Shown here: positions 6,258-39,101 of the stretch, piece after piece | Position numbering within the stretch: the first letter of the stretch is position 1 | Layout of the letters: every line of letters starts with the position of its first letter | NCBI GenBank assembly: GCA_018829185.1 | Contig: JAHJUI010000008.1 | Span: forward strand, 1 to 40,508 | Length of the DNA stretch: 40,508 bases | Direction of reading: 5' to 3' | From: Nanobdellota archaeon | GTDB taxonomy: Archaea; Nanobdellota; Nanobdellia; SCGC-AAA011-G17; PNOQ01 | Program-made: the position numbers and the translations under genes | Notes under the pieces: generated by a model | The model's input: only the letters and a program-made list of their open reading frames with translations | What the model was told of the DNA's origin: nothing | The model's database searches: none

Positions 6258-7742
6258 CTATACGATTGCAAATCTCAAAATAGCCGCAATTCCACCAAGA
6301 TCTTTTAATTGAACTCCTTCTCTTGTCTCAGTAGAAATCAATCTAACAACTGCCCCAGTATTTTCAGCCTTCTTTTCAAACTCTTCGCTTTTCTTATCAT
6401 CAAATTCTTCAGAAATTAAAATAGTTTCAACAGCACCTAACTTCAAAGCTTCTTCAACTTCTTTTTCCCCATAAGCTGCTTTACCTGTATCTTTTGATAA
6501 CATGTCTAAAAATTTATTCATAATATCTTTTTCTTCAGTTATAGCTTCTTCAGCTAAAATATCTTTACTTTTCTCAACTAGTTCTTGTAAACCAAACTCG
6601 CCAGTATAACTTAAATCTTGAACAGCAATTACCTTATCTTTTAATTCTTGATTCAAATAAGATCCATCTACAAACTCATTTTTTGTATGTCCCGGACCGC
6701 CAACTAAAATTCCTTTTAATTTTGTTTTTACTTCCAAAAATTCTTTATTTGCTGCACTAGCAATTTTATTAAAGAAATCTTTTGCGGCAAGTTCTCTTAT
6801 TCTAGCATAACGGGCTTGACTATTATGTACTAAAACACAATTTGCAATAAAATTCTGGTTTTTTACAGAAATATCAACTAAACTAAAATCGCCTTTCTTT
6901 AGTTCTATAGAATCTACTTTAATTTCTTCTGCATTTTCATTTAATAAACAATCTCCAATTCCCAAATCTTCAGTAGCCTTAGTTTCTCCGTTGGAAAGAA
7001 AAAATAAATGGTCTTTTGAAGCTAAAATTTCATTATCGCTAGTTTTTATTAAAAAAGCTTCATTTTTTTTAACATCCCATCTGTCTAAACATTCAGAAAA
7101 TTCAAATTCTTTTGTAAAAAAATTATAAGATTTTAATAAATCTCCCTTTTTAACATCAGAAATTTTAATTTGGGAATTTTTTAATTGAACTATAGAATCA
7201 AAGTCAATGCATTGCCCCCCCTTAGTTGTTTTTCCAGGAACATTAGAATGAAAATTTGCAGATTCTATAATTGAATTTCCCTTAAGGAATCCAATATTTC
7301 CCTCTCTTTTATCAACAACTATTAATCCAAAAACTTCATCATGATCCATCATCTCCTTAAGTAAATCTAATTGAAAAGTTTGATCACACCTATATGTTCT
7401 GGTCTTCATTGGTTTTGGGGGTTCAATACTCCAAACTTGAATATTTGATTGACCTTCTCTTTCAGAAACATTACCTGCAAAAGCAGCTAAGCCATTAGCT
7501 GGTGTTTTTTTAAATAAACGTAAATGTCTAATCATTCTTTCTAAAGAATCAATAACATGTGTTCTAGTTGTTTTATCTTTAATATTACTTGCAGTACCTT
7601 GCTCTTCTTGTAAATGCTGTATAATTTTAATTAATTCGTAACCAGCTGGAATGTAAACCGAAACAAGCTCCGTGTGTCTACCTCGAATACCTTCTAATTC
7701 CTTTATGAACTTTTTTAGTTCTTTCTTTTCTTTAACTTCCAT
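6258..7742 (-). CDS. prf1: Peptide chain release factor aRF1 with mini-intein in GGQ loop
   Basis: This is the archaeal omnipotent release factor: it reads stop codons in the A site and triggers peptidyl-tRNA hydrolysis. The extein parts total 364 residues, somewhat short for the family (about 410). Domain 1 has T-A-S-N-I-K-D at about residues 50-56, where most homologues have N-I-K-S, and the Y-x-C-D-x-x-F motif at 117-123. Domain 2 has the catalytic G-G-Q at 175-177. A 130-residue intein directly follows the Gln, and the extein resumes S-Q-A-R-Y-A-R. Domain 3 is standard. ATG at 7742. The gene's own stop is TAG (6258-6260), with an in-frame TAA four codons later. Confidence 0.95.
   Translation of the reverse strand: MEVKEKKELKKFIKELEGIRGRHTELVSVYIPAGYELIKIIQHLQEEQGTASNIKDKTTRTHVIDSLERMIRHLRLFKKTPANGLAAFAGNVSEREGQSNIQVWSIEPPKPMKTRTYRCDQTFQLDLLKEMMDHDEVFGLIVVDKREGNIGFLKGNSIIESANFHSNVPGKTTKGGQCIDFDSIVQLKNSQIKISDVKKGDLLKSYNFFTKEFEFSECLDRWDVKKNEAFLIKTSDNEILASKDHLFFLSNGETKATEDLGIGDCLLNENAEEIKVDSIELKKGDFSLVDISVKNQNFIANCVLVHNSQARYARIRELAAKDFFNKIASAANKEFLEVKTKLKGILVGGPGHTKNEFVDGSYLNQELKDKVIAVQDLSYTGEFGLQELVEKSKDILAEEAITEEKDIMNKFLDMLSKDTGKAAYGEKEVEEALKLGAVETILISEEFDDKKSEEFEKKAENTGAVVRLISTETREGVQLKDLGGIAAILRFAIV
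6822..7211 (-). other. Mini-intein (130 residues) in aRF1
   Basis: The insert begins with Cys1 (C-I-D-F-D-S) directly after G-G-Q and ends V-L-V-H-N, followed by extein Ser. Splicing blocks visible: block A (C1), block B (E-I-L-A-S-K-D-H68-L-F-F), block F (L-V-D-I-S-V-K-N-Q-N-F-I-A-N, residues 111-124) and block G (V-H-N then S+1). At 130 residues there is no homing-endonuclease domain, so it is a Hint-only mini-intein, probably no longer able to home. Until it is excised, the catalytic loop is interrupted one residue after the Gln. All expected splicing residues are present, so it should be active (inference). Confidence 0.93.
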
Positions 7743-19908: not shown

Positions 19909-20840
19909 ATGAAATCCAATCATCTAAAAGAGAACAAGTATAAAAATCTTTGCTGTCCTAATTGTAAAAGTAAACTTGTTAAAAAGAATGGAAGAAGAAA
20001 GACAGAAAACAGAGGTTTAATTCAAAGATATCAATGTAAGAAATGTAATTATAGATTTACTTATGATGATGGATTTTTCAGAATGAGAAACAATCCTAAG
20101 AAAATAACTTGTGCAATTGATTTATTTTATCGTGGAACTTCAACAAGAAAAATTCAAGAACATTTCCAATCTTTTTATCCACACAATTCTCATAATTCTA
20201 CAATTTATCGTTGGGTAATTAAATATTCTTTAATGATAAGTAATTTCACAGATGGCTTAAAATTGAAAGTTGGAAAAGAAATTCAAGTTGATGAGATGGA
20301 ATATCATAGACGTCAAGAACATAAGAAAAAGGGGTTGTCAAAGATTGATTTATTGATTCTATTGATTGTCAAACTCGTTATATGGTAGCTTCTAAGTATG
20401 CTAAGAAAAGAGAGAAGATTGAATTGAAAGAAGTTTTAACAAAAGTAAAATACAAAACAGAAGGCTATGTAACCACAATCACAACAGATGGTTATACTGC
20501 GTATGAGAACCTTGTTAAGAAAACTTGGGGCTATAATAACAAAGAAGGTAAATATAAAATCATACATAATAAAGTTATAGCTTCAAGAGGAGAAGGATTT
20601 AATTTATTTATTGAAAGGTTGCATAATTCTATTCGTGAAAGAACTAAAATCTTTAGGGGATTTCATGGAACAATAGAATCTGCCCATACAATTATGAAAG
20701 GATATGAGATATTTTACAATTTCATAAGAAAACATCAGGCGATAAATTGCTGTCCTTATGAATTGGCTACTGATATTAAATTAACTAACCCCAATAAATG
20801 GGTTGAGTTGATTTGGCTAAGTAGATTACAAAATTATTAA
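19909..20840 (+). pseudogene. DDE transposase with N-terminal zinc ribbon, disrupted by frameshift and nonsense
   Basis: The N-terminus has C-P-N-C-K-S...C-K-K-C-N-Y-R-F, a helix-turn-helix region and then a DDE domain resembling IS6/IS240-type or IS1-like transposases. The catalytic residues are D in I-Q-V-D-E-M, D in T-T-D-G-Y and E in F-I-E-R-L-H-N-S. The first frame runs 19909-20388. The rest of the domain continues one frame over, to 20840. Adding one A to the AAA run at 20340-20342 restores the frame but gives K-D-stop-F-I-D, where relatives have K-D-W-F-I-D, so a TGG to TGA change is also present. Two lesions in four codons suggest decay. A slippage product or a start at ATG 20382 is less likely. 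Confidence 0.8.
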
Positions 20841-22748: not shown

Positions 22749-23609
22749 TCATAACTTAACATAAAAATTAATTGGAAAACCTTTAATCCCTCGATGAAAC
22801 CTCCTTTCATTAAACCAAATTCTCCATTCTTCTAATTTTCCATTAATCCAATGCTTGAATTTGCTTAACAAATTGACAAATTCTTCAGCCAAATTTCTTA
22901 TTGTTCTTTCAACTTTTCCCTTATCCTGCGGATAATAAGGGTGAGCGAAGATTGGCTCGCTTCCAAGATTTTGCCACCAGATTTTCCATTGTTCTCTGAA
23001 TTGGGGGCCATTATCTGAGAGAATCTTTTTAGGTTTAATCTTTGAACTACGCAAAACTGAAGTTAATTCTTCAGTTTTAGGGCAATGATCAAATAATTTT
23101 AAGCATATGATAAATCTTGAATAATCATCAATACAAACAAAAATGTAATATTTTTTACCTTCAAATATGAACTCTTTTAGATCTGCCTGCCAAAGTTCGT
23201 TTGGCTCCTTGGCACGAAAAAACTTCCATGTTTTAGCTTCATATTGATAGCCGTTTAATTTATGCTTCTTCAAAACGTTATTTATCGACGTTCTTGACAG
23301 CTGGAAGTTTTGAACACAAACCTCCATTTCTTCTCTCTGAAAACTAGGCAAATCCATTAATCCTTGCTGTATTCTTGCTGTTCCCCATTTGAACATTGTT
23401 CGCATGAACAAGATTGAGATTTCAACGTCTATTGTTATTTTTCCCTCTCTTGTTCTTGGAATATCTTCAAAATTTGAATTTAGTGTTTCTGAGCTCCAGT
23501 ACCAAACAGTAGTTCTGCTTACTCCAAAAACTTGAGCGACAAGTTTTTTAGGGTTGCCTTGCTTTACTGAATTGGTCATGAGCTTCCGTTCAACTGGATT
23601 GAGTCTCAT
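22749..23609 (-). CDS. IS481-like transposase (integrase-fold DDE)
   Basis: This apparently intact 286-residue protein has an N-terminal helix-turn-helix (about 20-45, V-F-G-V-S-R-T-T-V-W), a second helical domain, then an rve-type catalytic core. The core has the acidic triad in W-Q-A-D-L, L-S-D-N-G-P-Q-F and K-G-K-V-E-R-T. The tail W-F-N-E-R-R-F-H-R-G fits IS481/IS3-type transposases. ATG 23609 is preferred; a GTG at 23636 would add nine residues read from a palindrome. The stop lies inside the left inverted repeat, as is common for compact insertion sequences. Confidence 0.85.
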   Translation of the reverse strand: MRLNPVERKLMTNSVKQGNPKKLVAQVFGVSRTTVWYWSSETLNSNFEDIPRTREGKITIDVEISILFMRTMFKWGTARIQQGLMDLPSFQREEMEVCVQNFQLSRTSINNVLKKHKLNGYQYEAKTWKFFRAKEPNELWQADLKEFIFEGKKYYIFVCIDDYSRFIICLKLFDHCPKTEELTSVLRSSKIKPKKILSDNGPQFREQWKIWWQNLGSEPIFAHPYYPQDKGKVERTIRNLAEEFVNLLSKFKHWINGKLEEWRIWFNERRFHRGIKGFPINFYVKL

Positions 23610-23616
23610 GGCTGTT

Positions 23617-23634
23617 GGGCAGGATATCCTGCCC
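23617..23634 (-). promoter_or_regulatory. Perfect 18-bp palindrome in the transposase leader
   Basis: GGGCAGGATATCCTGCCC lies between a GAGGTG ribosome-binding-like sequence (just upstream on the minus strand) and ATG 23609, leaving seven bases to the ATG. In RNA it would form a stem of about 7 bp. It could gate translation, or be a protein site in DNA. The role is inferred. Confidence 0.5.
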
Positions 23635-23743
23635 ACCTCTTTTTAATGATTATTAATACGAATTTCTAGAAGAACTATTTTTCGGTTCTGTAAAGTGTTC
23701 AGTTGCACGCTTTACTTTACAGTTAGGAAATTTTTTATAAAAG

Positions 23744-36183: not shown

Positions 36184-36642
36184 ATGGCAGATAAGAAAAA
36201 ACCAACAATAAAAGTAGAAAGAAATTATATAGTTAATCTTAGAAAAGAAATAATCAAAGCTCCAAGGCAAAAAAAAGCAAAAAAAGCAATTAGGGCTCTA
36301 AAAGCATTCTTATCAAAACATATGAAATCTGAAGATGTAAAATTAGGAAAGTATCTTAATGAATATTTATGGCAAAATGGACCTAAAAATCCGCCAACAA
36401 GAGTAGAAATAAGAGTTACAAAAGAAGATGAAAAAGTCTTTGCTGAATTAAAATCAGCACCTGAAGAAAAGAAAAAAGATAAAAAAGAAAAGAAAAAAAT
36501 TATTGAAAAGAAAGAAATTGAAAAAGAAAAGCAAGTTGATATGTCTTTAGTAAATAAACAAAAAAAAGTAGCTAAAGAAAAGAAAAAAGAAGAAGTTCCT
36601 AAGGCAGCTGAATTAAAAGAAGAAAAAGAAGAAAAGAAATAA
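36184..36642 (+). CDS. rpl31e: Ribosomal protein L31e with long charged tail
   Basis: Residues 1-92 match L31e (E-R-N-Y-I-V-N-L-R-K, K-A-I-R-A-L-K-A-F-L-S-K-H-M, L-N-E-Y-L-W-Q-N-G and P-T-R-V-E-I-R-V), a protein near the tunnel exit. Residues 93-152 are a Lys/Glu-rich tail not found in typical L31e. Stop TAA shares its last A with the Cbf5 ATG (TAATG), so translation is coupled. The eIF6 gene that often follows L31e in archaea is missing here. Confidence 0.93.
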   Translation: MADKKKPTIKVERNYIVNLRKEIIKAPRQKKAKKAIRALKAFLSKHMKSEDVKLGKYLNEYLWQNGPKNPPTRVEIRVTKEDEKVFAELKSAPEEKKKDKKEKKKIIEKKEIEKEKQVDMSLVNKQKKVAKEKKKEEVPKAAELKEEKEEKK

Positions 36643-39101
36643 TGTCCTTATTACCTTTTGAAAAAATTAAAAGAGAAATTCTTATTAAAAAAGATGCTAC
36701 AACAAATCCAGATCAAGGATGTATTCCAGAAGAAAGATCAATACCTGAATTAATAAATTATGGTTGTGTTACAATTAACAAACCACAGGGGCCAACTTCT
36801 CATCAAATCTCAGATTACGTTCAAAAAATATTAGAAATAAAAAAGGCTGGACATCCTGGAACATTAGATCCAAATGTAACTGGTTGTTTACCTGTAATTT
36901 TAAAAGATGCAACAAAATTAACCCATTCTTTGCTAAAAGCAGGAAAAGAATATATTTGTTTGATGTATATCCACAAAAAAGTTTCTCAAGCTAAAATACA
37001 AAAAGCAATGAAAATGTTTATTGGAAAGATAACTCAACTTCCTCCAATAAAATCTGCAGTTAAACGTCAAGAAAGGCAAAGAGAAATTTATTACTTAGAA
37101 ATTTTAGAGATTAAAGGTCAAAACGTTTTATTTAAAGTGGGATGCGAAGCAGGAACTTACATTAGAAAATTATGCTTACATCCTAATACAGAAATAATTT
37201 CAAAGAATTCCTCGATTTTAGCTAAAGATTTTTTCATTAATCCAGACAAAATATACAGTATGAATAATAAAAAAATCAATCAAAAAAAACCCTCAGAAAT
37301 TCAGAAATTTAATTTTAATGGAAAATTAATAAAAATTACGATGGACTCGGGGATTTCGTTTATAGTCACACCAGAACACAAAATGCTAATATCCACAAAA
37401 GAAGGGTATATAATGAAACAAACAAAGGACTTAAAATCAGATTATATGGTCAAATCATTAAAATATCCTAGCCCAGAAATAAATTTGGCAATATCTGATT
37501 TATTAGATTATGGATACTTAGTAAACCAACCAAAGATAAAAGAAAAAACAAAAAGAGCTTTCATTAAGAAATTTGGAAGTATAAGAAACATGAATAAAGA
37601 ACTTAAATTAGACAGAAAAACTTTCCTAAAAAAATCTAAAAATGCTATTCCTATAAGCCACATCAAAAAAGCAGGGATATATGAATGCACAAAAAGGAGT
37701 ATACATAGTTTCAAAACAGAAAAAGGAATCAAAATAGAATTTAAAAAGTTAAACAAAAATTTAATGTATTTAATTGGATTAATAGCTTCTGACGGCAATA
37801 ACACTAAAGAAAAAGGTACAAAAAGGCACACAAGGCTAAAATTCCATAATAAAAATAAAATATTAATAAAGATATTTGAAGATAAATATAAATTATTATT
37901 CCCTAATTTTAATTTAACAGAAACGAAGAGAAAAGACGGCTTAATTCAATTAGACACCAGCAATAGTTTTTTAGCCACAATTTGTGCAAGTTTAGGAGTT
38001 AAAAGTCCTCAAAAAAGTTCAGATTTAAAAAAAATATCGCACTTAGACAAAAAGCTAATTGCCTCTTTTTTAAAAGGTTACTTCGATGGAGACGGAACAG
38101 CATATTACAAAAGGAAAATAAATAACAAAGGAAGATATAGTAGAATAGATTATTTCACAATTAGCGAAATAAATGCAAAAAGAATTCATCAAATGCTTTT
38201 AAAAATAGGTATTTCAAGCAAAATACATAAAAGAAAAAATAATTCTTACGTAATAATTATAAATAATTTATCATCTAAAAAAAGGTTTATATCTAAAATA
38301 GGATCTAATCATCCAAGAAAAAAAGAAATATTGAGATTAATAAAAAATATTAAGTCTCACACAGAAGATCAAACATACATCGGATTTCATTATAAAAAAT
38401 ATCTAAAAGAAAACGAAAAATCATTAAAAAAATTAGGCGGAAATTTAAATAGGATTCTTAATTCAAATTCTCCCATAACAAAAGAACTTTATAATAAAGC
38501 GAAGAAGTTTGCAAAACTTCCAAAAGAAGATGAATTCTGTATAGAAAAAATAGAAAAAATAGAAAAAATTCAATATAAGGGGCCAGTTTATGATATGACG
38601 GTCCCAAAAACACACAATTTTCTAATAGAAACTGGTTTTATTTCTTCAAATTGCCATGATATTGGATTAGCATTAGAAACAAATGCCCACATGGCCCAAT
38701 TAATAAGGACAAAAGCGGGTCCATTCAATGATAAAAATTGGTTTTCTCTTTACGAACTAAAAGATGCTTATGAATTCTATAAACAAGGAGATGAAAAACA
38801 ATTAAGGAAGATTCTCTTACCCATGGAATTTGCAGTTTCCCATTTACCAAAAATCTGGATTACAGATTCAACAGTAAATGCAATTTGCCATGGACATAAC
38901 TTGGCAATACCGGGAATATCAAAACTCCATTCAAAAATAGAAGAAAACGATCAGGTTGCAGTTTTCTCATTAAAAGATGAGCTAATAGCTCTTGGAAAAG
39001 CAATGATAAACTCAAAAGATATTATGAAACTAGAAAAAGGAATCGCTGTTAACATTCACAAAGTAATCATGAAACCAGAAACATATCAAAATGTTAGTTA
39101 A
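36642..39101 (+). CDS. cbf5: Cbf5 tRNA/rRNA pseudouridine synthase with homing-endonuclease intein
   Basis: Cbf5 is the catalytic subunit of H/ACA RNPs and, in archaea, can also act as a tRNA Psi55 synthase. The catalytic motif is H-P-G-T-L-D76. The extein is about 326 residues, normal for the family, with an N-terminal strand, the TruB-like domain and a C-terminal PUA domain (from about residue 745 of the precursor, I-C-H-G-H-N-L-A-I-P-G). An intein interrupts Y-I-R-K-L / C-H-D-I-G, a core helix-loop near the catalytic site. Only spliced protein should be active. It overlaps L31e (TAATG) and the radical SAM gene (11 bases). Confidence 0.95.
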   Translation: MSLLPFEKIKREILIKKDATTNPDQGCIPEERSIPELINYGCVTINKPQGPTSHQISDYVQKILEIKKAGHPGTLDPNVTGCLPVILKDATKLTHSLLKAGKEYICLMYIHKKVSQAKIQKAMKMFIGKITQLPPIKSAVKRQERQREIYYLEILEIKGQNVLFKVGCEAGTYIRKLCLHPNTEIISKNSSILAKDFFINPDKIYSMNNKKINQKKPSEIQKFNFNGKLIKITMDSGISFIVTPEHKMLISTKEGYIMKQTKDLKSDYMVKSLKYPSPEINLAISDLLDYGYLVNQPKIKEKTKRAFIKKFGSIRNMNKELKLDRKTFLKKSKNAIPISHIKKAGIYECTKRSIHSFKTEKGIKIEFKKLNKNLMYLIGLIASDGNNTKEKGTKRHTRLKFHNKNKILIKIFEDKYKLLFPNFNLTETKRKDGLIQLDTSNSFLATICASLGVKSPQKSSDLKKISHLDKKLIASFLKGYFDGDGTAYYKRKINNKGRYSRIDYFTISEINAKRIHQMLLKIGISSKIHKRKNNSYVIIINNLSSKKRFISKIGSNHPRKKEILRLIKNIKSHTEDQTYIGFHYKKYLKENEKSLKKLGGNLNRILNSNSPITKELYNKAKKFAKLPKEDEFCIEKIEKIEKIQYKGPVYDMTVPKTHNFLIETGFISSNCHDIGLALETNAHMAQLIRTKAGPFNDKNWFSLYELKDAYEFYKQGDEKQLRKILLPMEFAVSHLPKIWITDSTVNAICHGHNLAIPGISKLHSKIEENDQVAVFSLKDELIALGKAMINSKDIMKLEKGIAVNIHKVIMKPETYQNVS
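37173..38651 (+). other. 493-residue LAGLIDADG intein in Cbf5
   Basis: It begins with Cys1 (C-L-H-P-N-T-E-I-I) and ends F-I-S-S-N, followed by extein Cys+1. Block B is visible as V-T-P-E-H-K-M. The endonuclease motifs are L-I-G-L-I-A-S-D-G (about precursor residue 374-382) and F-L-K-G-Y-F-D-G-D-G (about 474-483). Block F is V-Y-D-M-T-V-P-K-T-H-N-F. The residue before the terminal Asn is Ser, not the common His; such variants are known in active inteins. The endonuclease motifs keep their acidic residues, so mobility may still be possible (inference). Confidence 0.93.

Follow-up and report, generated by a model that had tools for sequence, protein, structure and literature searches.

In the window, a 40,508-nucleotide contig of a Nanobdellota archaeon analyzed at its full length (GCA_018829185.1, JAHJUI010000008.1), the gene for the archaeal release factor aRF1 is interrupted directly after its catalytic GGQ motif by a mini-intein without an endonuclease domain. 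We hold it highly probable that this element descends from a mobile intein, has lost the endonuclease, splices obligately and occupies a new active-site allele. The insert, its junction, a modelled Hint fold, conservation of residues, endonuclease-bearing allelic relatives, a patchy distribution and conflict between intein and host trees carry this reading.

An insert in the catalytic loop of aRF1

The aRF1 gene lies on the minus strand at positions 6258-7742, ends with a TAG stop and encodes a precursor of 494 amino acids. Its reading frame matches TIGR03676 (aRF1_eRF1) with 405 bits (E 2.4e-121, cut-off 234.7) and contains the Pfam domains eRF1_1, eRF1_2 and eRF1_3, among which eRF1_2 is broken into two pieces exactly after GGQ. 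The N-extein (residues 1-177; 7212-7742, minus strand), in which profile positions 1-174 match 7209-7730, ends with GGQ as residues 175-177, whose codons at 7212-7220 (minus strand) were read directly from the sequence and align with GGQ of relatives. The mini-intein follows as residues 178-307 (6822-7211, minus strand), so 130 residues separate Gln177 (codon 7212-7214) from Ser308 (codon 6819-6821). It begins with Cys and ends with Val-His-Asn, the last two being His129 and Asn130 of the intein. The C-extein (residues 308-494; 6261-6821, minus strand) has the +1 Ser as its first residue, and 6267-6821 aligns, as two stretches, with profile positions 174-402. The original prediction had a mini-intein at exactly these coordinates and is confirmed; the junction, said there to be one residue after GGQ, is directly after the Gln, between Gln177 and Cys178.

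When the insert is removed, a protein of 364 amino acids remains, within the 362-382 amino acids of intein-free aRF1 from the window genome's family and order, and the sequence PGKTTKGGQ/SQARYARIRE (PGKTTKGGQSQARYARIRE), which is contiguous in same-family genomes, is restored. The exteins keep all three aRF1/eRF1 domains and the TASNIKD, YxCxxxF-type and GGQ motifs. What sets this protein apart from other aRF1/eRF1 release factors is the interruption of its catalytic loop, where GGQ has been described as universally conserved (PMC7708063).

The window genome amounts to 826 kb in 27 contigs and is 96% complete. An eRF1-family search of its contigs found no second aRF1, the sole other match being a Pelota-like protein without GGQ on contig 23, and the earlier statement that this is the only release factor holds to that extent. 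A homologue of Mtq2, which methylates the GGQ glutamine in characterised systems (PMC7708063), is present (TIGR00537, 130.7 bits).

Class 1 intein features

Extraction of the inteins at this site gave 71 distinct sequences, all sharing the ends and the +1 nucleophile of the window intein (Cys178, Asn307 and Ser308). Cys1, block-B His69, block-F Asp114, Phe122, His130 and Asn131 (alignment numbering) are invariant; block-B His, block-F Asp and the penultimate His are His245, Asp290 and His306 of the precursor. The +1 residue is Ser in 71 of 71, preceded by GGQ in 69 and by GGW in two. Because extraction required Cys after GG as well as His-Asn before Ser, Cys or Thr, the ends were partly selected for, but the inner residues were not. 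Chance does not account for the insert, since 71 distinct sequences have this junction and keep the splicing residues without exception.

In the precursor structure predicted by AlphaFold2 (mean predicted local distance difference test, pLDDT, 86.9), residues 178-307 form an all-beta domain, with pLDDT of about 90 there, flanked by flexible hinges of low confidence at 171-175 and 309-312. In Foldseek searches, the modelled insert matched the gp41-1 intein 6riz (TM score 0.90, rmsd 1.9 Å) and the modelled exteins matched archaeal aRF1 structures 4af1 and 3agk. The best sequence matches of the insert in the Protein Data Bank are gp41-1 (1.4e-6) and Spl DnaX (1.1e-5), and the Pfam model Intein_splicing scores 57-74 bits in seven longer allelic relatives. 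The intein identity is settled by these high-scoring relatives together with the 71-member invariant residues and the modelled Hint fold. Like the gp41-1, Spl DnaX and Ssp DnaB mini-inteins of the Hint superfamily, the insert has Cys1, block-B His, block-F Asp, penultimate His, terminal Asn, a +1 nucleophile and the predicted Hint fold; judged by sequence and model, it has every class 1 feature that was checked, with splicing itself as a prediction.

A recurrently invaded site

The survey for inserts after GGQ that was proposed with the original prediction was carried out on 279 genomes of the phylum, of which 262 gave an aRF1 match, by hand counting from per-genome profile-match tables. aRF1 is split at profile position 174 in about 44 of the 262, including 18 of 41 in the order of the window genome, and many close relatives of the window genome have an empty aRF1. 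Interrupted frames total about 500 amino acids with a mini-intein and otherwise mostly about 780-1100. Three of the roughly 44 occupied genomes (G072, G085 and G184) have their copy cut short where a contig ends or by a break in the frame. In one of them, the aRF1 intein frame is broken on a single contig into a 625-aa frame with the N part and a 261-aa frame with the C part (L076, G085:C56), which may reflect a frameshift, an assembly error or separate genes. Split inteins were considered in G184 and G007 and rejected, as the aRF1 halves sit at contig ends, indicating an assembly break rather than trans-splicing.

Beyond the phylum sample, a scan of 84,980 species for DNA encoding the pattern PGKxxxGGQC, which is a sample and not a census, found at least 80 loci, at least 40 of them aRF1 with the same insertion. 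By record title, the occupied hosts are Woesearchaeota, Pacearchaeota, Nanoarchaeota, Aenigmatarchaeota and Diapherotrites; CP045477.1 (Candidatus Forterrea multitransposorum) is a complete chromosome. Among the matches listed for these loci, no aRF1 intein was clearly from outside DPANN, one record titled Methanosarcinales (L153, JAFCBX010000040.1) being probably a mislabelled genome of the window's class. A viral vector was also sought, but nine distant intein- or endonuclease-type matches (22-38% identity, partial) were all that a viral-contig scan gave, none spanning the whole element.

The lengths of the 71 distinct inteins are 130-145 amino acids in 28, 275 in one and 421-520 in 42. As in archaeal homing-endonuclease inteins, LAGLIDADG_3 was detected by Pfam in every one of seven longer allelic inteins, three of which have an additional HTH_3 domain, and both LAGLIDADG motifs are visible in most of nine longer inteins that were aligned. 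In one of the nine, that of G197 (L085), the first motif has Lys at its acidic position. Unlike these relatives, the 130-aa window copy has lost the endonuclease completely, as the Pfam scan found no LAGLIDADG or other homing endonuclease domain, and it is not a homing intein in its present form.

What had been presented as a singular case is thus one occupant of a real site, GGQ/S of aRF1, that has been invaded recurrently across DPANN archaea, often by inteins with endonuclease domains. The concern that the insert might be absent from relatives assembled independently is not borne out, since dozens of such assemblies have an insert at this position.

Intein and host histories

Comparison of the intein tree with the host tree, also proposed earlier, found conflict at well-supported nodes, as homing predicts. 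On the whole, the extein and splicing-domain trees broadly agree, with Mantel r of 0.71 within mini-inteins and 0.64 within longer inteins, which fits mostly vertical descent after invasion. The extein tree, however, pairs G202 with G277 and G229 with L106 (both with support 100), whereas the intein tree pairs G202 with G229 (99), while G277 and L106 hold mini-inteins. The mini-intein of L178 and the endonuclease-bearing intein of G200 are 2.71 apart, with a host distance of 0.13. Conversely, G080 and L110 have distant hosts (1.79) and close inteins (0.39), the extein branch of L110 being unusually long. In one of five approximately unbiased (AU) tests, a host-like intein grouping was rejected (p 0.03, L178/G200 pair). 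Such conflicts, as read from the sequences, fit repeated invasion, endonuclease loss and replacement at one site.

Mini-inteins are under purifying selection, as nonsynonymous differences (pN, 0.06-0.24) are fewer than synonymous ones (pS, 0.24-0.75). The window mini-intein has no close relative, its identity to any other being at most about 45%. The window's family also contains an endonuclease-bearing intein (G007), partly assembled and nearer to other long inteins.

Several observations count against the proposed origin and identity. The window insert scores 24.4 bits with Intein_splicing, below the 35.8-bit cut-off, and its PT-HINT match is likewise sub-threshold. Block B reads SxxH, unlike the TxxH of known class 1 inteins, in 70 of the 71 sequences, with Ser in place of the usual Thr at position 66. 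Four of the five AU tests, on an alignment of only 131 columns, did not reject the host-like grouping. Lastly, the intein tree gives the window intein no firm position.

A free-standing Hint protein beside aRF1

Four genomes of one genus (g26, family f4) have a 131-aa Hint reading frame outside aRF1, at L226:2466-2858 (G131), L227:124-516 on the minus strand (G306), L099:3296-3688 (G029) and L062:640-1032 on the minus strand (G123). In G131 and G306, this gene follows immediately downstream of aRF1 in the same orientation; in G029 and G123, the two lie a few kilobases apart. aRF1 is empty in G029 and G131 and has a long intein in G123 and G306. The proteins are 53-62% identical between species and 27-39% identical to aRF1 mini-inteins of the order's other genera, with which they cluster in the tree (97). 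A confident Hint fold is predicted (pLDDT 95.9), and pN is 0.22-0.32 against pS of 0.56-0.71. In all four, Cys1 is changed to Ala after the start Met, block-B His to Gln and His-Asn to Ser/Thr/Asn-Glu, and block-F Asp is replaced. With all splicing residues lost, the protein is predicted to be catalytically dead. The simplest account is a mini-intein sequence kept as a separate protein once aRF1 lost it. That it binds aRF1 is a guess.

Proposed mechanism and alternatives

We propose the name aRF1-a for the GGQ/S insertion site, after the catalytic Gln and before the next Ser. The ancestor would have been a mobile intein that spread by means of a LAGLIDADG homing endonuclease, which cut alleles lacking the intein at their highly conserved GGQ codons. 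In the window copy, from which the endonuclease is gone, the insert would persist because a splicing defect is lethal and precise deletion is rare. The aRF1 mRNA would yield the 494-aa precursor, in which the Hint domain would fold on the ribosome or shortly afterwards. Following the usual class 1 chemistry, an N-S acyl shift at Gln177-Cys178 would be followed by transfer to Ser308, cyclisation of Asn307 and a final acyl shift to a normal GGQ-S bond, ligating the exteins into the 364-aa mature aRF1.

Only the spliced form would place GGQ in the peptidyl-transferase centre. Because the intein domain sits at the tip that enters this centre, unspliced aRF1 should not release peptides, and we consider it very probably inactive. 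It had been argued that splicing must follow termination on the same mRNA, which is overstated. With the intein and the +1 Ser both made about 187 codons ahead of the stop, a chain can splice before its own termination, perhaps co-translationally, and mature aRF1 would pass to daughter cells at division.

The intein might, on the other hand, have acquired a function, its splicing gating termination, with the freed Hint domain of g26 retained beside aRF1 as a catalytically dead partner or regulator, also in genomes where a new mobile intein has entered aRF1; we offer this tentatively and think it unlikely. A functional switch of the more general kind, in which the intein would be retained because conditional splicing in response to redox, temperature or starvation gates the supply of active aRF1 and tunes termination post-translationally, also appears unlikely to us. 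RadA and mycobacterial DnaB are precedents for conditional splicing (PMC5874633, PMC6195587), mini-inteins largely track their hosts under purifying selection, and the Hint domain of g26 has outlasted its location in aRF1 as an adjacent separate gene. However, any obligate intein is expected to be under purifying selection anyway, and many close relatives live without the intein. The window intein does have cysteines besides C1, but these are not conserved across the family.

If the mini-intein no longer spliced, or spliced slowly, aRF1 would have to be active unspliced or supplied by another gene. The divergence of the window's Hint domain from all relatives is compatible with such decay, but we judge it very improbable, as all splicing residues are intact, pN is well under pS in allelic mini-inteins, only one aRF1 is detected in a nearly complete genome, and an insertion in the catalytic loop would leave no room in the peptidyl-transferase centre. 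An assembly or binning artefact is hardly credible, even for a fragmented genome that is likely metagenome-derived, as the insert is in frame deep within a 40.5-kb contig and the site is filled in many independent assemblies, a complete chromosome included. An obligately splicing descendant of a mobile intein thus accounts best for the insert.

Variant release factors and other elements

GGW replaces GGQ in aRF1 of four genomes of family f12, with an intein in G035 (L046), G088 (L061) and G308 (L230) and without one in G242 (L229), and GGF replaces it in the intein-free aRF1 of G009 (L011; family f2). The variant codons, TGG and TTC, are two or more changes away from CAA/CAG. The scan for these variants (279 genomes) requires the PGK context, making the count a minimum. 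In G035, G088 and G009, the variant is the only aRF1 found. For Mtq2, nothing above generic methyltransferase scores was found in G035, G088 and G308, which is weak evidence for G308, only 73% complete; scores are weak in G242 (75.7 bits) and G009 (87.4 bits) compared with 96-146 bits in GGQ relatives.

The window genome contains at least six inteins. Within the window, a Cbf5 (TruB family) gene at 36642-39101 (plus strand) has an intein of roughly 490 amino acids with LAGLIDADG_3 before the Cys of RKL/CHDIG. Elsewhere, inteins are present in GyrB, an SMC-like protein, an aIF5B-type GTPase and a PEP synthase/PPDK-like enzyme (contigs C13, C10, C6 and C27; L238, L239, L240 and L243, respectively). 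Two transposase-like genes were read by eye at 19909-20840 (plus strand) and 22749-23636 (minus strand). The former is split into two overlapping frames of 159 and 152 amino acids, suggesting a broken or frameshifted insertion sequence.

Implications

Inteins that interrupt essential translation proteins are known in eIF5B and threonyl-tRNA synthetase (PMC5784728), and the window genome likewise has one of the aIF5B type. In contrast to those, we found no report of an intein that interrupts a release factor or a motif entering the peptidyl-transferase centre. The open-access literature searched gave no description of an aRF1, eRF1 or release-factor intein, an absence that is not proof, and intein surveys made no mention of release factors. 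NCBIfam returned no exception model for intein-bearing aRF1, though such models exist for some intein-bearing proteins. The GGQ/S site of aRF1 is thus seemingly undescribed, a new host protein and a new site for class 1 inteins.

As no protein is completed without the release factor, all protein synthesis in these cells would hang on protein splicing. Empty, mini-intein and endonuclease-bearing alleles of aRF1 together form a natural set on which neutral, addictive and regulatory roles of inteins in essential translation factors could be tested against one another.
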